Below are positions 9,423-25,504 of a stretch of DNA of 64,000 bases, in pieces (within the stretch, counting starts at the first letter, position 1; each line of letters begins with the position of its first letter). A program made the position numbers and the translations under genes. The notes under the pieces were generated by a model. The model made no database searches, was not told where the DNA came from, and worked only from the letters and a program-made list of their open reading frames with translations. This stretch comes from Halopelagius inordinatus (lineage in GTDB: Archaea > Halobacteriota > Halobacteria > Halobacteriales > Haloferacaceae). The stretch covers positions 62,001 through 126,000 of the forward strand of contig NZ_FOOQ01000006.1 in the NCBI RefSeq assembly GCF_900113245.1, in the 5' to 3' direction.

Positions 9423-10826
9423 TCAGACGTAGCCGAACAGCGACGCCGCGAGAGTGACGAACCACGCGCCGACGCCCAAGGCGGCGACTCGCCGGTTCTG
9501 CTGTGCGACGCCGTACGCCAGTAGCCCGAGTGCGCTCATCAGGGTGAACCGGTGCAACACCAGACTGACCGGGACCGTGGAGATTCCGACGCCGCCCAAA
9601 TCGAGCACCAACCCGGCACCCAGTCCCCCGGCGGCGACGACTGCCGTCCGGTTCGGCGGGCGTCCGCGTGCGAAAAAGACCACGAGAGCCGGAAGCCCGA
9701 ACACCAACATCGGGTAGAGTACCGCGGCGAACAGTTTGGGAGTCACCCCCGGAACGAGGTTCTCCGCGGTGATTCCGGCGGCGCGAACGCCCAAGACGAG
9801 TGCGACCAGAGACGCCGGAAGCGCGGCGTCGGAGACGTCGAACCGCCGTCGAGCGGAACCCGGGAGCGTGATACCGACCACGAGGGCGACGGACGCGAAG
9901 TCGATTATCGTCAGCCATCCGTCGCTGCCGCCGCCGCCGAGCCCGTGGTACTGACGGCTGACGCCCTCGACGAACGGTTCCTCGCGGAGGTCCTGTTCGA
10001 CGAACCGCGCGCCGGGAGCGACGCCCGTGACGGTGTGGCGCAGTCGGAACCAGTCCCAGTACTCAGTGTGGGCCTGAAACGCCGTCCAGTTGCCGAAGGG
10101 ACCGGGATACGCCCGGATGTGGGTCCGCTGCCCGAGATAGGCTCCGGTCGCCAGTTGGTATCGGGACTCTATCCACCGGCCCGAGGCGTTCGGGTCGGCG
10201 GTGACGTACGTGTAACGAGACGAACCGCGCGCCGGTTGCCACGGCGATTTGCCGACGTCGATATCGACTTGCGTATCGGTCGTAGTCGTTGTCTCCACTC
10301 CGGTCGTAGTCGTTGTCTCCACTCCGGTCGTAGTCGTTGTCTCCACTCCGGTCGTAGTCGTCGTCTCCACCCCGGTCGTAGTCGTCGTCTCCACCCCGGT
10401 CGTAGTCGTCGTCTCCACCCCGGTCGTAGTCGTCGTCTCCACCCCGGTCGTGGCCGTGGTTTCTCCCCCAGTCGTGGCCGTAGTTTCGGTCTGATTACCG
10501 GTCGCGGTCTCGGGTCCGGTCTCGGGCACGACCTCCGGTTCGTCTTCGACGACCGTCCAGTTGGCCTCCGAGCGACGTTCGAGTGCTCGGCGGATTTTGC
10601 CCCGGTCGCCGCGGATGATGACGTTGATGGCGAGCGTTCGGTCCCGGACCGAGCGGCTACGGCTGGTGTACGGCCAGATGTAACTGTTCGTCTCGTCCGG
10701 TTGATAGAGTCGCGCCTCCGGTGGCCTCTCCTGTTGGGGCGCGACGCTGCCGCCGAGGAACCCACCGGCCAAGAGACCGACGACGAGTACGGCGACGAAC
10801 AGTATTCGACGGTGACGCACGTTCAC
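9423..10826 (-). CDS. Membrane protein with Thr-rich octapeptide repeat linker
   Basis: 467 residues. An N-terminal signal anchor (about 8-28) precedes an extracellular part that contains a low-complexity run of the octapeptide GVETTTTT repeated seven times plus degenerate copies, followed by a globular section and about seven C-terminal membrane segments. The repeat region is coded by 24-bp tandem units and is rich in threonine, a likely target for O-glycosylation and an extended stalk. I do not recognise the family. The gene converges with the glycosyltransferase-like gene. Confidence 0.6.
   Translation of the reverse strand: MNVRHRRILFVAVLVVGLLAGGFLGGSVAPQQERPPEARLYQPDETNSYIWPYTSRSRSVRDRTLAINVIIRGDRGKIRRALERRSEANWTVVEDEPEVVPETGPETATGNQTETTATTGGETTATTGVETTTTTGVETTTTTGVETTTTTGVETTTTTGVETTTTTGVETTTTTGVETTTTTDTQVDIDVGKSPWQPARGSSRYTYVTADPNASGRWIESRYQLATGAYLGQRTHIRAYPGPFGNWTAFQAHTEYWDWFRLRHTVTGVAPGARFVEQDLREEPFVEGVSRQYHGLGGGGSDGWLTIIDFASVALVVGITLPGSARRRFDVSDAALPASLVALVLGVRAAGITAENLVPGVTPKLFAAVLYPMLVFGLPALVVFFARGRPPNRTAVVAAGGLGAGLVLDLGGVGISTVPVSLVLHRFTLMSALGLLAYGVAQQNRRVAALGVGAWFVTLAASLFGYV
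10278..10469 (-). repeat. 24-bp in-frame tandem repeat, eight units
   Basis: Eight consecutive 24-base units, each coding one octapeptide. The first three (by coordinate) share one sequence, the next four share another that differs at two positions, and the last is degenerate. The two homogeneous blocks point to recent unit duplication. It is coding, in frame and without spacers, so it is not a CRISPR. Confidence 0.95.
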
Positions 10827-16051: not shown

Positions 16052-16492
16052 TCAGAGGTCGTACCCCCACTCGCGGAGGACGTCTTCTGCGTCTCCGAGG
16101 TGGCGCATCCCGGCCAGATAGATGGCCTCCCGCGCGTCAGTTCGCGACAGTCCCTCGCCGAGTCGCTTCTCTAACGCTCGTTCGGCGTCCACCGCCGCCT
16201 CGTGGGTCTCTCGCTGCACGAACAGTTGGTGAACCTCCGGGCGTTCGTCTTTGACCTTGTCGCGGCGGAGAATCAACGGGAGTTCGTCGCGGGACAGTCT
16301 GTCGCCGTCGCCGGGTCCGTCGCCGTCGTCGTCCGTCTCGGAACCCGACTCGTCGGACCCCGGCGCAGACGGGTTCGTCTCGTCCGCCCGCACCTCGGAC
16401 GTGCGAGTCTCCGTCTCCCGCGTCTCGTCGGACTCGGTCTCGTCTGTCTCATCGCCGTCGTCCGCGAACGGGTCCGAAGCACCGGATTTCAT
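16052..16492 (-). CDS. Probable ribbon-helix-helix DNA-binding partner of ParA
   Basis: 146 residues from the ATG at 16492, which overlaps the ParA stop as ATGA. The first 70 residues are an acidic, disordered tail. The C-terminal 75 residues read as strand-helix-helix (VHQLFVQRE, then AAVDAERALEKRL, then SRTDAREAIYLAGMRHL), the ribbon-helix-helix order. By analogy with ParF/ParG and archaeal SegA/SegB pairs, it would bind centromere repeats and stimulate the ATPase. The RHH assignment is my inference from pattern, not a database match. An alternative is a non-DNA-binding ParA adaptor. Confidence 0.55.
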   Translation of the reverse strand: MKSGASDPFADDGDETDETESDETRETETRTSEVRADETNPSAPGSDESGSETDDDGDGPGDGDRLSRDELPLILRRDKVKDERPEVHQLFVQRETHEAAVDAERALEKRLGEGLSRTDAREAIYLAGMRHLGDAEDVLREWGYDL

Positions 16493-17370
16493 GCGACCAC
16501 CTCGCGTTCGTCGGCCGAGAGGTCCGCTTCCGTGAGTTCGACCCCGTACTGCGCGGAGACGAACCGGGCGAGTTCGTCGAACGCTCGGAGCGTGTCGTGC
16601 TCTCGGTCCGCGCGTTTGTTGTTCGAGACGAAGTCGAACGCCGTCGTTCGGGCGTCCCACGCGCCGTTCAGCATCGCCTCGCGGACGGGTATCATCACCG
16701 GCGAGACGGGGTAGTCGAGTTCGTTCAACGCCGCCTCGTACTTGTCGCGAACCCGCGTTCGGCGAACCTTGTTCGGCACGACGGCGACGACGCCGACTTC
16801 GGTTTCGACTTCGGCTTCGAGGTTCGAGACGGTGTCTTCGAGGCCGTACAGCGACTGTTCGCCTTTCGGCGAGAGTTCGAGCGGGATGACGACGTTTCCG
16901 GTGGCCGCGACGGCGTTGTAGACGTGTTGCCCGCCGGTCGCAGGCGGGTCCACGACGACGACGTCGTACTCCTCCGGGACGCCCGCGTCGCCGAGGACGC
17001 GTCGGAGTTGCAGTTCCTTCACGAAGCGACCCCCCATATCCTGTTCCATCTCTTGGGCCCGTTGGAGGTTCGTCTCCAGACTGTCGAGCATGTTGTGGCT
17101 CGGGACCACGTGCAGACCGTGCGTCGTCTCGCGGACGAGGTCCGAAAAGTCGCCTTTCGGCCGGTCGATGAGGTGGCGTACGAGATTGTCCACCTCGGGG
17201 TCGGCCCGTTCGTCGTCGACGCCGAGGTGGTGACTCGCACCGCCGTTCTGCGGGTCGAGGTCCACGAGGAGCGTCTTCTGTCCGTGCCGTCGGTGCGCCG
17301 CGGCGAGGTTCACCGCCAACGCGGTTTTCCCCACCCCGCCCGCCTCACTCCAGAGCGCGTACGATATCAT
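16489..17370 (-). CDS. parA: ParA/Soj family partition ATPase
   Basis: 293 residues from the ATG at 17370. That start sits about 30 bases from a TATA-like box at 17396-17405, whereas the GTG at 17388 is too close to it. The Walker A reads SEAGGVGKTA (K15, T16): the signature lysine of the usual KGGVGKT is replaced by alanine. Switch/Walker B text YDVVVVDPPATGG is intact, and LVDLDPQNGG is the ParA A-prime motif. The family forms ATP dimers that move DNA cargo on the nucleoid. It is coupled to the small downstream gene, with palindromic repeats just upstream. Confidence 0.85.
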   Translation of the reverse strand: MISYALWSEAGGVGKTALAVNLAAAHRRHGQKTLLVDLDPQNGGASHHLGVDDERADPEVDNLVRHLIDRPKGDFSDLVRETTHGLHVVPSHNMLDSLETNLQRAQEMEQDMGGRFVKELQLRRVLGDAGVPEEYDVVVVDPPATGGQHVYNAVAATGNVVIPLELSPKGEQSLYGLEDTVSNLEAEVETEVGVVAVVPNKVRRTRVRDKYEAALNELDYPVSPVMIPVREAMLNGAWDARTTAFDFVSNNKRADREHDTLRAFDELARFVSAQYGVELTEADLSADEREVVA

Positions 17371-17395
17371 TCGACCGTCTGCAGACACCGGCTGT

Positions 17396-17405
17396 TCATA
17401 AATCT
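17396..17405 (-). promoter_or_regulatory. TATA-like box of the parA operon
   Basis: On the minus strand this reads AGATTTATGA, centred about 30 bases before the ATG at 17370, the spacing of a leaderless haloarchaeal promoter. It supports the shorter ParA start. Confidence 0.45.
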
Positions 17406-17415
17406 TGACCGAACT

Positions 17416-17456
17416 GAGCAGTAATACTGCTCAATAATACTGACTAGTACTACTGA
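17416..17456. repeat. TACTG palindrome cluster, proximal (candidate centromere/operator)
   Basis: Opens with a near-perfect 17-base palindrome (17416-17432, arms GAGCAGTA and TACTGCTC around one base), followed by AATAATACTG and TAGTACTACTGAA. It is strikingly AT-rich against its surroundings and lies directly upstream of the parA promoter. Confidence 0.75.
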
Positions 17457-17577
17457 AAAGGCAGACTAATTAGGCGGCCGGATGACTCGCGATACGCGTT
17501 TCCTGACGCAGAGTCGCTCGAGCGGTCGAAAGATGAAAACGAGCGGCTAAGCGAGGTTACCAACCGACGGAATCTAA

Positions 17578-17640
17578 GTACACTGATAGCTGTTACTGTT
17601 TAGTAGTACTGTCCAGTAATAGTATGTAATAATACTGAAT
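17578..17640. repeat. TACTG palindrome cluster, distal arm
   Basis: Repeated half-sites GTTACTG, TAGTACTG, CAGTAATA and AATACTG. The 18-base unit at 17604-17621 (TAGTACTG, two bases, CAGTAATA) recurs at 20877-20894 with only the two central bases changed. The rest of the 17371-17777 gap holds no gene. Confidence 0.75.
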
Positions 17641-17777
17641 AGGAAGTTAGAGTCGGACACCCATCCGTCGTTCGGGGAGATACTGCGGCGCAAAACGAGG
17701 GCGTCCGGTTCGGTCGGACGCATCCCGCGGCCGCGAGAGCAGTCACGGTGAAGGGCTCGGGGAACCGCATTGGAGAT

Positions 17778-18605
17778 ATGGCGAACAACACGCTCGACGA
17801 ACGCGATAGAGTCGTTCTCGAATCGCTCCACGAGGGGGGCGAAGACACGGAGTCGCTAGCCGACAGCGTAACCGAGTCGGCGGAGTCGCTTCGAGAGAGA
17901 CTCGCCGAACTCGCGGACGACGGCTTGGTCGAATCGACCGATAGCGGTGGATACGCACTCACGGCGAACGGACAGCGAGTCATCGCCGCCTCTGGAGACG
18001 GGGCCACGGACAACCGCATCGACACGCCGCCGGAAGTCGAACGAGAGATAGAGTCGTTCGACCTCTCCCCGGACGAGACGGAGGCGGTTCGCGACGCCTT
18101 CGCGTTCCTCCACTACTGGGGAACGGCGTCGGCGGGCGAGATTATCGACGGGGTGTTCAGCGAGACCCCCGCCGCCTTCGAGTCGGGGACAGAGTGGTGG
18201 ACAGAGTTGGTCCGAGACCGTCTCGGGAGCCTCCCGTCGGTCGAACCGCCGAAGAGGACCGACCGCGAGTGGCGGTACTCCGGGACGCCGACCGTCGAAG
18301 AGCCCAACGAAGACGGTCGAATCGTCGTTTCCGACGACGAGGGAGCACAGAGCAGCGTCAAGTACGCCCTCGAACGACTGTCGCTGGACGACGACGAACG
18401 GGACGCCGTTCGCGCGGCCTTCGACCTTCTCGTGCGAGAGGGAGAACTGCGCGCGACGGAGATTCGCGACCGCGTCTATCCCGACCACGCCGCGGGATAC
18501 GAGTCGCCGTCGGAGTGGTGGAACGACTGCGTCCGAGGCGCGTTCGAGTCGTTACCCGGCGTCGAGTGCCGGGACGCGACCGACGACGTCTGGGAGTATC
18601 GATAG
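17778..18605 (+). CDS. Winged-helix protein with a duplicated C-terminal domain
   Basis: 275 residues from the ATG at 17778; a GTG at 17748 is a possible longer start. Residues 5-72 form a winged-helix DNA-binding domain (LDERDRVVLESL, SLRERLAELADDGLVE). Two copies of a domain of about 72 residues follow (96-167 and 201-274), aligned over DETEAVRDAFAFL/DERDAVRAAFDLL, FESGTEWW/YESPSEWW and a final WRY/WEY. I do not recognise this domain; its EWW box is invariant between the copies. The TACTG repeats lie between it and parA, so it could regulate or belong to that locus. Confidence 0.65.
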   Translation: MANNTLDERDRVVLESLHEGGEDTESLADSVTESAESLRERLAELADDGLVESTDSGGYALTANGQRVIAASGDGATDNRIDTPPEVEREIESFDLSPDETEAVRDAFAFLHYWGTASAGEIIDGVFSETPAAFESGTEWWTELVRDRLGSLPSVEPPKRTDREWRYSGTPTVEEPNEDGRIVVSDDEGAQSSVKYALERLSLDDDERDAVRAAFDLLVREGELRATEIRDRVYPDHAAGYESPSEWWNDCVRGAFESLPGVECRDATDDVWEYR

Positions 18606-19548: not shown

Positions 19549-19778
19549 AGTCGAGGCAAGCACCGCCGTGGTCGCGAGCGTCCGAGGTCGAACGGTGCGG
19601 AGTCCGACGGAGAGAATCGGCGGCGGATACGCCCGGTATTTATTTGCGAAGTCGCCGCGTAGGTTCACCAGTTATCGATGCCCGGCCTCCACGGGAGAGA
19701 CGACCGCGAGACGACGAATCGATATCGAGACGAGGCAGTCGGAGCGTCCCCGCGGACGGGTCGAAGACCCGAAAAGAG

Positions 19779-20747
19779 ATGACAGACCAGAACACGACTC
19801 GCGGCGACTCGGACAGGTCGAAGACAGACGACGAGAACCACGACCGGTGGCACGTCATTCTCAACCCGGTGAGCGGAACCGGCGACCACGGAGCGGAGGT
19901 CCACTCGCTGGCGTCAGAGCGGGGGTACATCGTCAAAGAGACCGAATCGGAAGGTGACGCGGCCGCTCTCGCGAAAGAGGCCGCAGAGGACGGCGTGCAG
20001 CGAATCGCCGCCTGCGGCGGCGACGGGACGATACATCAGGTCCTCGTCGGAATCGACAGAGCGGACGCGCTCGACGAGGTTACGTTCGGCGTCATCCCCG
20101 GCGGGACGGGGAACAACTTCGCGGGTAACGTTGGCGTGCGGAGCATCGAACATGCTTTCGAACTCCTCGACGGCGGCGAACGACGGCGAATCGATTTGGG
20201 CGAAGCCGACGGCGAACCGTTCGTCAACTCCTGTATCGCCGGACTGACGTCGAAGACGAGTTCTGATACGAGTTCGGAGTTGAAAGAGCGAGTCGGCACC
20301 CTCGCGTACGTGATAAACGGGATACAGAAAGCGGCCACCTTCGAGCCGCTTCACGTCGCAATCGACATCGAGGAGGGTCAAGGCGGGAACTCGACGACGT
20401 GGGAAGGCGACGCGCTCTGTCTCCTCGTCGGGAACGCGCGTCGCTTCACCACGGGAAGCCAAGCGCACGTGGAGGACGGTTTGTTCGAGGTGACCATCGT
20501 AGAGGAGATGCCGACGACGGAGATGCTCACCGAGGCGGCGGCACAGCGACTGTTCGGACAGGAGACGGAACACGTCACCCAACTGGCCGCCGAACGACTC
20601 GACATCACCCACAAACAGGGCGACGGGGTCGAGTTCAGTTTAGACGGGGAGATGCGGACCCACGAACAGTTGACGCTCGACGTCCGACCGGGCGATTTGG
20701 AGGTAGTCGTGGGTCCGGAGTACGACCCGGTACCGATAGAAGGCTGA
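19779..20747 (+). CDS. Diacylglycerol/lipid kinase family protein (YegS-like)
   Basis: 322 residues from the ATG at 19779. After a 25-residue acidic tail come the DAGK signatures: ILNPVSGTGDHG, the nucleotide loop AACGGDGTIHQV and VIPGGTGNNFAGNV. The C-terminal domain ends with the usual SLDGEMRTHEQLTLDVRPG. The family phosphorylates a lipid hydroxyl with ATP at the membrane surface; in archaea the lipid would be archaeol-based. The gene converges with the DUF2071 gene across a repeat-rich gap. Confidence 0.85.
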   Translation: MTDQNTTRGDSDRSKTDDENHDRWHVILNPVSGTGDHGAEVHSLASERGYIVKETESEGDAAALAKEAAEDGVQRIAACGGDGTIHQVLVGIDRADALDEVTFGVIPGGTGNNFAGNVGVRSIEHAFELLDGGERRRIDLGEADGEPFVNSCIAGLTSKTSSDTSSELKERVGTLAYVINGIQKAATFEPLHVAIDIEEGQGGNSTTWEGDALCLLVGNARRFTTGSQAHVEDGLFEVTIVEEMPTTEMLTEAAAQRLFGQETEHVTQLAAERLDITHKQGDGVEFSLDGEMRTHEQLTLDVRPGDLEVVVGPEYDPVPIEG

Positions 20748-21139
20748 AATCCGGGCTCTCTCGTCCGCCGAGTTTCTCGCCGAAGAGCCGTCGTACCCCG
20801 CGGTCGGGGAAGTTTTCGGAGTGTCATCTGTAGGGACTTCGAAGACGTGAATCGAGTGTTCGGTAGCCACGTCTGATAGTACTGGGCAGTAATACTGATT
20901 TGTAATATTACACAGTATTACTAAACAATATTACTAATAGAAACGGGTGACGGCGATTCCGGGAAGTAGTACTGAACACCGATACGCGGAGAGGTCGAAT
21001 TACGCGGCAATCGAGAGGTAGCAGACGCCTCCTGGGGGAGAAAGAACAGAGTAGTCACCGAATCGGTCGGGCCGGAGGACGGTGCGGCGCAGTCGGATTC
21101 GACTCCTGGAGTGTCGAGACGGTGCCCGCTTTCGAAGGC
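20748..21139. other. Convergent intergenic region carrying TACTG repeats
   Basis: About 390 bases between two genes that point towards each other, so no promoter is expected. The only notable content is the palindrome cluster at 20877-20976. No ORF or RNA gene was seen. Confidence 0.6.
20877..20976. repeat. Second TACTG palindrome cluster, 3.3 kb from the first
   Basis: Holds TAGTACTG-GG-CAGTAATA (20877-20894), CAGTAATACTG (20887-20897), the perfect 10-base palindrome GTAATATTAC (20902-20911), CAGTATTACTA (20913-20923), AATATTACTAATA (20928-20940) and AGTAGTACTGAA (20965-20976). The composition is strongly AT-rich in a GC-rich genome. It matches the cluster upstream of parA and lies between convergent genes. 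Confidence 0.75.
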
Positions 21140-21835
21140 TCACTCGGCGCGCCACCGCTTGCTTCGAGAGGTGACAACGTCGGTTCTCGGACTGTAGTAG
21201 AGCACTGGTTCCCCTTCGGGGTGGTCGAACCCGTTGGCCTCGAACAGCGTGTTCTCGTCGACGGACCACTCCGCCGAGTAGAGCGTCCACGGGTCGTGGG
21301 AGACGTCGGTGTACCGAATCGACCCCGTCGAGTCCTGCGTGTACAGTCGCGTCCGGTCGGTCAGAAACGCCGCCATCGACCCGGGTTCGGCCTCGAACAA
21401 CTCGCCCGTCGGTCCGTAGGACGCCGAAAAACGGACCGGTCGGTCGCCGGGGTGGCGCCGCCTGCTCTCGAACCGAACGCGGCCGTCGTCGCCCGTCATC
21501 CGCATTCGAGCGTAGTAGTACGGGAGTCGATGCGTCACGCGGGCACCGAGCACCGCGAAGAGACTGTTCGCGTCCAGATTGAAGAAGTAGACGCCCGGTT
21601 CGCCGTCGCAGGTGACGTACGTCCGGAGGTTCAACTCCGGAAGCGGGATTCCCACCGACGCCGGGAGTCCACGCGGGCGGACCTTCACGTTCCGGAACGG
21701 AACGACGGAGAGCCATCCGTCCCCGTCGTATTCCTGCACGGAGAGGGCCTCGGGAAGGTGGGCGTCTACGACGTCCGCCTCGACGCGCCAGTTCGCGAAC
21801 AGAACGTGCTCCCAACCGAACGCCATCGGAACCAT
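21140..21835 (-). CDS. DUF2071 (YqjF-like) protein
   Basis: 231 residues from the ATG at 21835 (a second ATG lies three codons in). The family text is clear: MAFGWEHVLFANWRVEADVVDAHLPEAL at the start, WLSVVPFRNVKVRPRG, LNLRTYV and GVYFFNLDANSLFAV. DUF2071 proteins have an acetoacetate-decarboxylase-like fold, and their function is unsettled. The longer reading frame adds an arginine-rich shadow. It stands alone between the repeat region and the LarA-like gene. Confidence 0.8.
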   Translation of the reverse strand: MVPMAFGWEHVLFANWRVEADVVDAHLPEALSVQEYDGDGWLSVVPFRNVKVRPRGLPASVGIPLPELNLRTYVTCDGEPGVYFFNLDANSLFAVLGARVTHRLPYYYARMRMTGDDGRVRFESRRRHPGDRPVRFSASYGPTGELFEAEPGSMAAFLTDRTRLYTQDSTGSIRYTDVSHDPWTLYSAEWSVDENTLFEANGFDHPEGEPVLYYSPRTDVVTSRSKRWRAE

Positions 21836-21955
21836 ACCGGACAGAGGCGGCGGGGGAGCATCAACCCCCCGTCGTCTCGGACGACGGCGATTCCTTGTGG
21901 CGATATCCACTAGTCGGGACGCGCGCCCCGCGGATAAGCCGAGTTCGTCGAGCAG

Positions 21956-23293
21956 TCACTCCGTCGCGTGCGGCGTCGGCGCGGCGAACTGCCCGTCTTC
22001 GAACCGTATCGGTTCCGGTTCCGCGAGGACGCGCAGGTCGTCTCTGTCGCGTGCCTCCTCTACGAGCGCTTTCGAGGCGTACGTCCGGTCTAATCGCATC
22101 GTGTCGGTCGCTCTGAGGACCCGAGCGTCGTCCGGTCCGACGACGCCCAGCGTCGAAAGCGCGGCCACGAGGCCCGCGCGGTCGGTTTCGACCACCGGCG
22201 GGAGTCGGACGCCCCGAGTCGTACTCGCCGTGATGGCGTTTATCAGGGTCGTCGAACTATCGAGTTCGGCGGCGACGTCGCGGTGAACGAAGTCCGCAGA
22301 ACCCATCCCCATGGCGTTTCCGTGCGTCGTCTCGGTGAGACGTCGCGTGTAGATGCGCTTTATCTCCGGTTTGTCCGGACCGGGTTCGTTGATGGCGAAC
22401 GGCCGTCGGCCGATGACGTTCGTGTCCATCCCCTGTCCGCTGACGTCCTTTCCCTGCCTATCGACGACGAGGACGTCCAGTTTCTCGTACGGAATCTTCG
22501 GCATGATGTCGTACGCCGTCTCCAACAGTTCGGCTTCCCTGTCGAGGAACCCCCCGGGGGGGACGCCCTCGATGTGGTCCGTATCGTCGTGTTGGTCCTC
22601 GACGATGGCGACGCCGCCGACGACGGGCAGTTCGTCGAGCAACTGCTCCGTTATCTCCGGAATCATGTTGCGGAAACTCCAATCGACGGCCCACTCGTGG
22701 GCGATTTTTGCGCCGCGCTGTTTGCCCATCCCGATGACGAGCATCTTCGAGAGGCCGCTTTCGACCGTTCCGTCGAAGTCTGTGTGCGGCTTGACTCGGT
22801 TGACGGGGAGAATCGCGTCGGCGGCGGCGGCGTTCGCGTCGGCCACGACGGGCACCTCTCGTTCCGGCGTCGTACCTATCTGGACGACGTCCATGCTCGA
22901 CCGGATTTCGCACCCGATGGTGCGTTCGTCCACGCCCAGTTCCGCGAGCATCTCCGCTTGCCCCTCGGCCGTCGCGCCGCCGTGACTGCCCATCGCCGGG
23001 AACACGAACGGTTCGTACCCCCGCGATTGGAGTTCCTCGACCACGCCGCCGACGATGGTCGAGAGGTTCGCGATACCGCGACTGCCCGCGCCGACGGCCA
23101 CCTCTCCGCCGTCGGGGATGCGGTCGAGTGGGAGGTCAGAGACGGCGTCGGCCGCCCGCCGCGCGATTTCGCCCTCCGGAATCGGGTCCGTCTCCCAGAC
23201 CTGCTCTACGAGTCCCATCTCGGGTAACGTTACCTCGCCGCAGGCTTCGAGAACAGTCTCCTCGCCGACGACGAGGTCCGACAGTGAGTTCAT
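21956..23293 (-). CDS. LarA-like (lactate racemase N-terminal domain) protein
   Basis: 445 residues. The Lar_N/DUF2088 signature is visible in VAVGAGSRGI, FPAMGSHGGATAEGQAEML (the conserved histidine loop) and the NRVKPHTDF segment. True lactate racemases use a nickel-pincer cofactor made by LarB, LarC and LarE, none of which is in the window, so the substrate may be another 2-hydroxyacid or the protein may act differently. Its length is close to the family norm. No operon partner is evident. Confidence 0.72.
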   Translation of the reverse strand: MNSLSDLVVGEETVLEACGEVTLPEMGLVEQVWETDPIPEGEIARRAADAVSDLPLDRIPDGGEVAVGAGSRGIANLSTIVGGVVEELQSRGYEPFVFPAMGSHGGATAEGQAEMLAELGVDERTIGCEIRSSMDVVQIGTTPEREVPVVADANAAAADAILPVNRVKPHTDFDGTVESGLSKMLVIGMGKQRGAKIAHEWAVDWSFRNMIPEITEQLLDELPVVGGVAIVEDQHDDTDHIEGVPPGGFLDREAELLETAYDIMPKIPYEKLDVLVVDRQGKDVSGQGMDTNVIGRRPFAINEPGPDKPEIKRIYTRRLTETTHGNAMGMGSADFVHRDVAAELDSSTTLINAITASTTRGVRLPPVVETDRAGLVAALSTLGVVGPDDARVLRATDTMRLDRTYASKALVEEARDRDDLRVLAEPEPIRFEDGQFAAPTPHATE

Positions 23294-24208: not shown

Positions 24209-25504
24209 TTATCGATTCGTTCCGAGCGTCGACTGCGACCCGTTTCGGGTCCCCTCCATAGAGGAGAGTTCCTCTACGGTCGGCAAGTCGTCAAGACTGG
24301 CGTCGCGGCGGACTGCCTTGACGATGTGGCGGGGGTCGGTGACGAGTCGGTGGAGGAGGTAACTCCCCTGTGACCGTCCGCCGCCGGTCTTGTTCGACTC
24401 GATGACGCCGAGGAACGCCTGTTCTTTCAACTGCTTGTACAGGCCGTTCTCGGTGACCGGTTCGAAGCCCGCGACACCGCACATCTGTTCGTACCGTTCG
24501 TATATCTGCCTCGTCGAGTGCGTACCGTCCTCGCCGACGATGACGAGACTCGACAGGGCGTACAGCGCGAGTTTCGCGTGGATGGTGCCGCCACTCGTCA
24601 GTTCCTCGACGCGGTTGATTTCGGCGATATCTTGGGCCTGCCGGATGTGTTCTTTCGTGACGGTGCCGTCGTCGTTCCGCCGGGCGAGTTCCCCCGCCTC
24701 TTTCAGGATGTCGATGGCCTTTCGGGCGTCGCCGTGTTTCTTCGCCGCGAGGGCCGCACAGAGTTGGATGGTTCCGCTGGCGAGGACGCCCCGTTGGAAG
24801 GCGTCTTCACGGTTGCGCATGATTTCGCGGAGTTGGTCGGCGTCGTAGGGGTGAAAGAACAGTTCTCGGTGACCGAAACTCGAGTCGATACGTTCGTCGA
24901 GAGACTCCCTGTACTGTATCTTGTTGCTGATGCCGACGACGCCGATGTAACTTCCCGTTTTGTTGGCTTCGCGGGCGCGAGAGAGTTGCATCAGGATGTT
25001 CGAGTTCGTGAGTTTGTCTATCTCGTCGAGGATGACGACGAGTGCGTCGTAGTGGTCGTCGAGGATGCGCCAGACGTGTCGGTAGTACTCCATGGTCCCG
25101 ACGCCTCGGGTGGGTATCTCTCGTTCGTACTCCGTCGCTCGCTTCAGTTCCATGGCGAGTTTCCGAGTCGCTCTCGTCTCCGTGTCCGCCTCCGAACAGT
25201 CGACGTAGACGACGCCGCAGGCGATGCCGTTGGCCTCCGCGGCGTTCTGTGCGCGACTCGCGACGTGGCGGGAGACGAGACTCTTTCCCGTTCCCGTCTT
25301 CCCGTAGATCATCACGTTGTTCGGCGGGTCCCCGCGGACGATGGCACCGATCTCGTCGGCGACGCTCTGTATCTCCTCGTCGCGGCCGACGATTCGGTTC
25401 TCTTCCGGAACGTGGCCGACGTGGAGGAGTTCCTTCCTCGCGAAGATGGGATCCTGGTCGGCGAACAGCGGATCACCCACCTCTTCTCCCTCCTCCTCTG
25501 ACAT
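24209..25504 (-). CDS. orc1: Orc1/Cdc6 replication initiator
   Basis: 431 residues. The AAA+ domain has Walker A GKTGTGKS, Walker B LVVILDEID and a sensor-type VVGISNK segment; the C-terminal third (about 320-420) is the winged-helix domain that contacts ORB DNA. The start at 25504 follows a TATA-like box by about 25 bases. The gene is transcribed away from a region with six ORB-like elements, the standard haloarchaeal initiator-origin arrangement, so it very likely binds this origin and loads the MCM helicase. Other Orc paralogues presumably exist elsewhere in the genome. Confidence 0.95.
   Translation of the reverse strand: MSEEEGEEVGDPLFADQDPIFARKELLHVGHVPEENRIVGRDEEIQSVADEIGAIVRGDPPNNVMIYGKTGTGKSLVSRHVASRAQNAAEANGIACGVVYVDCSEADTETRATRKLAMELKRATEYEREIPTRGVGTMEYYRHVWRILDDHYDALVVILDEIDKLTNSNILMQLSRAREANKTGSYIGVVGISNKIQYRESLDERIDSSFGHRELFFHPYDADQLREIMRNREDAFQRGVLASGTIQLCAALAAKKHGDARKAIDILKEAGELARRNDDGTVTKEHIRQAQDIAEINRVEELTSGGTIHAKLALYALSSLVIVGEDGTHSTRQIYERYEQMCGVAGFEPVTENGLYKQLKEQAFLGVIESNKTGGGRSQGSYLLHRLVTDPRHIVKAVRRDASLDDLPTVEELSSMEGTRNGSQSTLGTNR

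Follow-up and report, generated by a model that had tools for sequence, protein, structure and literature searches.

The window, meaning the whole 64-kb stretch of DNA analysed here, covers bases 62001-126000 of contig C6 (170,577 bp) in an assembly of 3.53 Mb. It holds a gene for a ParA-family ATPase, a small gene joined to its end, three arrays of short repeats and an Orc1/Cdc6 gene:

16052-16492, minus strand: partner protein of 146 aa, a putative centromere-binding protein; N-terminal MKSGASDPF motif, then an acidic variable linker, then a C-terminal domain (predicted strand at about residues 87-93, predicted helices 94-111, 117-127 and 132-141)
16489-17370, minus strand: ATPase of the ParA family; 293 aa if read from the ATG at 17370, with a GTG at 17388 as a possible alternative start
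17397-17403, minus strand: TATA-like element (TTTATG) of the parA promoter, recognized by sequence, just downstream of array A
17415-17456: array A, three 13-bp units at 17418, 17431 and 17444, abutting the parA promoter
17600-17638: array B, three 13-bp units at 17600, 17613 and 17626
20873-20975: array C, 13-bp-phased units at 20873, 20886, 20912 and 20925, plus one at 20963
24209-25504: Orc1/Cdc6 gene, about 8 kb from parA

The ParA reading frame as opened runs from 16489 to 17388 (minus strand), but the alignment of relatives begins only at residue 7, which makes the ATG at 17370 the probable start. The protein is a Walker-type ParA ATPase by its domain matches (AAA_31, PF13614, 1e-22; CbiA, 2e-15) and by its best matches in the PDB, which are Soj/ParA chains. 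An ATGA overlap joins its stop to the start of the partner gene, bearing out the translational coupling claimed in an earlier, sequence-only reading of this DNA.

The repeats and the replicon that carries them

That reading had also reported two clusters of half-sites upstream of parA, one of them with a 17-base palindrome. The clusters are arrays A and B, both built of CAGTANTACTG units in 13-bp phase, with array B placed between parA and a divergent gene (17748-18605). The palindrome in array A is perfect, TGAGCAGTA-A-TACTGCTCA, but it extends over 19 bases (17415-17433), and a third cluster, array C, had been missed. Array C lies 3.4 kb from parA, flanked by the convergent 3' ends of a lipid-kinase-like gene (19707-20747, plus strand) and a DUF2071 gene (21140-21910, minus strand), and is therefore no obvious promoter operator.

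With at most one mismatch allowed, the window has seven copies of CAGTANTACTG where 0.09 are expected, and none of 100 shuffled sequences had as many. A position-weight model of the repeat finds 14 sites above 7 bits, 11 of them in clusters A, B and C and the remaining three isolated; the model was trained on the upstream DNA of 41 loci, the window's parA upstream region among them, so arrays A and B are not scored independently, and array C lay outside the training set. Throughout the genome, repeat sites cluster only at arrays A, B and C and are otherwise isolated.

A second genome of the genus (G295) encodes a ParA 94% identical and a partner 60% identical to those of the window, and it has arrays at places matching A, B and C. 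Between the two species the units of arrays A and B correspond one to one, most of the spacer does not align, and array C keeps its 13-bp phase. In G295 array C lies 13 kb from parA, and its neighbours are again the lipid kinase and DUF2071 genes, together with an Orc1/Cdc6 gene 97% identical to the window's. All three arrays are thus conserved between two species while the surrounding sequence diverged. Conservation in relatives had been suggested as a check on the repeats; the arrays recur in this sister species, and a 13-bp period recurs across the family (below).

An origin had been placed within 8 kb, and the Orc1/Cdc6 gene at 24209-25504 agrees with this. A close relative of that gene occurs in four of 60 genomes of the taxonomic family, this one included. 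The window contains no tRNA gene, and the nearest cassettes whose replicon is known are on named plasmids. The likelier reading of these sequences is that contig C6 is a secondary replicon. As to its form, the only similarity between the ends of the contig (L052, 121-475, and L053, 19646-20000) is an inverted match of 355 bp at 99.4% identity, which does not demonstrate a circle, and circularity was not adopted. Elsewhere in the window, a tandem-repeat stretch at 10249-10494 lies inside a reading frame (9423-10826, minus strand) whose predicted protein repeats GVETTTTT, and a gene for a nickel-pincer cofactor-dependent isomerase (group 22) is found at 21956-23293 (minus strand), with similar DNA on several haloarchaeal plasmids.

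The ATPase, its partner and their relatives

The partner is found in 167 of the 293 genomes of the order. It is also found on 107 PLSDB plasmid records, all haloarchaeal among the matches listed, where it is mostly annotated as a hypothetical protein next to ParA. Every relative with a name in the collection of genomes is haloarchaeal. Viral contigs gave no relatives of the partner, and a viral origin was rejected on that account. ParA lies directly upstream of, and coupled to, the partner gene in 226 of 230 loci (223 plus L031, L068 and L125), a count in which some cassettes appear under two locus ids, so that the loci are not 230 independent cassettes. Two of the exceptions are cut by contig ends (L040, L044), one has no ParA that could be found (L098) and one is out of frame (L131). 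The two genes overlap by four bases in 189 loci and by one base in 27, mostly as ATGA. A basic-x-G motif (K/R-x-G) is present at the N-terminus of 187 of 189 distinct partner proteins, the acidic linker varies from about 16 to 167 residues, and the C-terminal domain is conserved. No description of the partner family or its repeats was found in the open-access literature, the scope of a search that left aside subscription journals and bioRxiv. The window cassette is very probably one member of a large haloarchaeal family, without a name until now, in which repeat and partner change together. Some members of the family may be chromosomal, given chromosome-sized contigs: a class beginning MTKDDRYG, with PVYVRP or PVYVQD, lies on contigs of 3.0-3.8 Mb in several genomes (L205, L216, L220, L221, L227).

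The ATPase departs from its relatives elsewhere in one respect. Its Walker A motif, SEAGGVGKT, has alanine at the position of the signature lysine and so does not conform to the deviant signature KGGxxK[ST]. Among 221 aligned ParA proteins of the family this position is A in 180, S in 39 and never K, the two left over (L150, L223) being mis-started or broken reads. All the other core motifs are conserved, including the Walker A lysine K15, the switch D39-P-Q and the Walker B D141. KGG stands in the other P-loops of ParA-like genes that were read in this genome. In the ParA of pNOB8 the signature lysine reaches into the active site of the neighbouring subunit (PMC5393062). K169 and R230 are invariant in 221 of 221 family proteins, and one or the other perhaps replaces it.

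The partner had been assigned a strand-helix-helix C-terminus of the ribbon-helix-helix (RHH) type. AlphaFold2 models of 26 sequences predict an extended stretch followed by helices at 94-111, 117-127 and 132-141, so strand and helices are there in prediction, with three helices rather than two; a model of the C-terminal domain by itself adds, less confidently, short strands at 74-77 and 89-92. The order of strand and helices would be that of RHH proteins, but the third helix and the second strand, 74-77 beside 89-92, would not, and the usual RHH first helix is shorter than the one predicted for the partner. Sequence searches of Pfam, NCBIfam, PHROG and the PDB found no match to the partner, a profile of the family and scans with its individual members found nothing convincing among solved or curated families, Foldseek found nothing significant for the models among PDB or viral models, and an hhalign comparison with seven RHH_1 proteins from this genome gave a probability of 0.5%. 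The assignment to RHH is thus not confirmed. Since it takes a dimer to form the RHH sheet, the models neither prove nor exclude that fold, and a DNA-reading strand followed by helices would fit it.

Known systems resemble the cassette in part. The delta/omega/parS system of pSM19035 has ParApSM, the RHH protein ParBpSM, and short repeats set end to end at a number of sites, of which some overlap promoters (PMC9499535). A small partner of ParA and contiguous short repeats at several sites are common to both, but the repeats of pSM19035 are of 7 bp and those of the haloarchaeal cassette of 13 bp, its ParB is an RHH protein where the haloarchaeal partner has no RHH match, and the haloarchaeal ParA has no signature lysine. 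In SegAB of the Sulfolobales, a ParA-type gene overlaps that of a downstream DNA-binding partner, and palindromes lie upstream of the cassette (PMC5120986, PMC12284271). The overlapping ParA-type gene, the archaeal partner and the upstream palindromes are shared with the haloarchaeal cassette; the SegB motif, however, is a 13-bp palindrome scattered over the chromosome, in place of phased arrays. A profile of the partner family run against all PDB chains (E up to 10) found no SegB chain, and the window's ParA weakly matches the archaeal Soj chain 7dut, in my reading SegA. In ParF/ParG of TP228, a basic residue in the N-terminal region of ParG is thought to act on ParA (PMC12462528). The small partner with a basic residue in its N-terminal region is similar, but the partner does not match ParG, the P-loops differ, and ParG is an RHH protein. 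With no ParG or SegB chain found by the profile and no signature lysine in ParA, the proposed membership in ParF/ParG or SegA/SegB is not supported.

McdA, which positions type 1 carboxysomes, is a ParA-type ATPase also devoid of the signature lysine (SGGQGKT), and the partner that stimulates it is no relative of ParB (PMC8262871, PMC9178275, PMC6328274). What it positions is the carboxysome rather than DNA bearing a repeated site, and the top PDB match of the window's ParA is a chain other than McdA. The haloarchaeal partner, whose profile matches no solved or curated family and whose context is that of haloarchaeal plasmids, is not of McdB type with a carboxysome cargo. Lastly, halovirus PhiCh1 encodes a haloarchaeal ParA-type protein, but it is 32% identical over half the length, and the viral contigs gave no relative of the partner.

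A possible repeat code and the company that cassettes keep

The upstream DNA of 192 loci, those with distinct sequence there, was examined for period and repeat class. These loci were drawn by similarity to the window's cassette and are an uneven sample. For each, the lag from 7 to 24 with the best local self-match was recorded. The best lag is 13 in 166 of the 192 loci and 12 in 15 more; in shuffled sequences it is 13 in 16 of 192. Lag 13 is best in every class but one, and that class is a single locus. Control genes of the window give widely spread lags (the divergent control at 17748 shares the arrays upstream). Upstream of four further ParA-like genes in this genome (L002-L005) lie repeats that differ from those of the window cassette, with best lags of 18, 9, 19 and 9. 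The repeats of L005, AACGAA-type with a best lag of 9, may mark a second kind of partition locus in this genome.

Clustering the loci by repeat sequence alone, on the 5-mers of the 13-spaced units and with no protein data, recovers the classes of the partner's predicted strand. VHQLFV pairs with CAGTAWTACTG, PLFLQ with TGTTCATTA, VQLHLQ with TATCTNAGATA, Q[YF][FY]L with a TAGTCTAACTA-like repeat, P[YF]FLR and PIFIR with TATAGCTATA, RLEIHVR with a TTACAGAT-like repeat, and RLTFFVH with one further type. For the PVYV group the clustering picked up promoter sequence rather than a clear repeat, and there are mismatches: four EHVAFLR loci grouped with PLFLQ despite their different strand, and two NLFLR loci with VHQLFV. 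Over 14,560 pairs of partners less than 45% identical, 7-column windows of the alignment were tried as predictors of repeat similarity, corrected for the rest of the domain. The best is 86-92 (partial r of 0.17, against 0.01 for the median window), the best single column is F91, and none of 500 permutations reaches the value observed for residues 87-93. Repeat class is associated with partner strand, then, by a small effect with small partial correlations, and since the two are inherited together, their association is inflated.

Cassettes of one class also seldom share a genome. There are 58 genomes with at least two cassettes, giving 146 cassettes and 135 co-resident pairs, of which just one pair is of the same strand class, against 14.8 expected by permutation of labels (19.6 if permuted within family, 20.1 within genus). 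With one genome per genus, one pair in 81 is of the same class against 9.0 expected. In each of these strand-class tests, 0 of 5000 permutations were as low as observed. The strand classes were drawn after the sequences had been seen; clustering by DNA, which is independent of them, gives 0 of 89 same-cluster pairs against 11.3 expected. Identical partners within one genome were counted once, which may remove same-class duplicate pairs in two cases. These are G194:C1 (L220, L221) and G124:C7 (L036, L169), each with identical partners twice on one contig, possibly from duplication or assembly redundancy. The sole same-class pair is in G069, a fragmented assembly of about 200 contigs, and one genome carries seven different classes. 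As read from these sequences, exclusion is the pattern expected of partition-based incompatibility; it could partly reflect ancient single-copy orthologue groups.

Probable partition, its rivals and possible incompatibility

The observations from which a model may start are the order and coupling of the genes, the 13-bp arrays, the association of repeat class with strand, the conservation of the arrays in two species, the exclusion of co-resident cassettes and the loss of the signature lysine. I propose, with considerable confidence though from sequence, that the window locus is a ParABS-type (class I-like) partition cassette of a secondary replicon, its arrays serving as the centromere. A repeated cis-acting site of centromere-like kind is what the 13-bp arrays would provide, in the window and family-wide. 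The partner would bind the 13-bp-spaced arrays, probably one dimer per 11-bp palindrome, with arrays A, B and C together acting as centromere and array A also as operator of the parA operon. The N-terminal basic motif of the partner (MK-x-GA-x-DPF) would contact ParA and stimulate hydrolysis of ATP, and nucleoid-bound ParA would then move or space the replicons. If the predicted strand sets repeat specificity, cassettes of the same class should compete and so exclude each other. DNA binding, dimerisation, ParA activation and replicon movement are the parts of the model that I infer. Of the earlier proposal, what is supported is a partition cassette with upstream palindromic repeats beside an Orc1-type gene; the RHH fold is not confirmed, and membership in ParF/ParG or SegA/SegB is not supported.

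Might the arrays be operators only, the partner an autorepressor of the parA operon and its neighbours, and the pair segregate no DNA? Array A does abut the TATA-like element of parA, and the arrays of relatives lie just upstream of a conserved TATA-like sequence (TCTGACGAGTATTTTTATA-like, at the place of the window's element). That view is nonetheless quite unlikely: array C lies between convergent 3' ends, in the same place in G295 at 13 kb from parA, relatives' arrays can hold many units, more than an operator needs, and exclusion of co-resident cassettes is given no reason. Even less probable is that the arrays are replication iterons or origin elements bound by Orc1/Cdc6, with ParA and its partner as passengers near an origin. 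The Orc1/Cdc6 gene 8 kb away and the linkage of array C to orc1 in both species of the genus would be accounted for, but arrays sit at parA in 192 relatives, their sequence follows the strand of the partner, and pHOS100 has no annotated orc1 within the 40 kb read around its cassette.

A further alternative opposes incompatibility and leaves partition function untouched. Each class might be an old group of single-copy orthologues of a housekeeping ParA, in which case pairs of the same class are missing by orthology. For some classes, such as B and L in g5, hardly any sampled species of the genus is without a copy, and contigs of 3.0-3.8 Mb carry some of the class L copies. Set against these are class contents that are patchy among species of one genus (g37, g44, g35), the many cassettes on plasmid-size contigs and named plasmids, the genome with seven different classes, and the permutation within genus, still 0 of 5000. 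I regard this alternative as unlikely, less so than the two before it.

There is also a broader proposal, whose chances of being right or wrong I judge to be equal. There would be a haloarchaeal lineage of partition systems in which ParA lost its signature lysine, K169 or R230 perhaps replacing it, and in which the unnamed partner family falls into seven or more specificity classes, every class having a 13-bp-phased centromere repeat of its own. The classes would be incompatibility groups, by which up to seven or more secondary replicons are kept apart in one haloarchaeon.

Little is known of how a haloarchaeal cell sorts its many large replicons. The cassette offers a candidate centromere that can be tested, a candidate protein to bind it, and a readable repeat code with a predicted reading strand. 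The classes of repeat and strand offer, besides, a means to type the incompatibility of haloarchaeal plasmids from their sequences.
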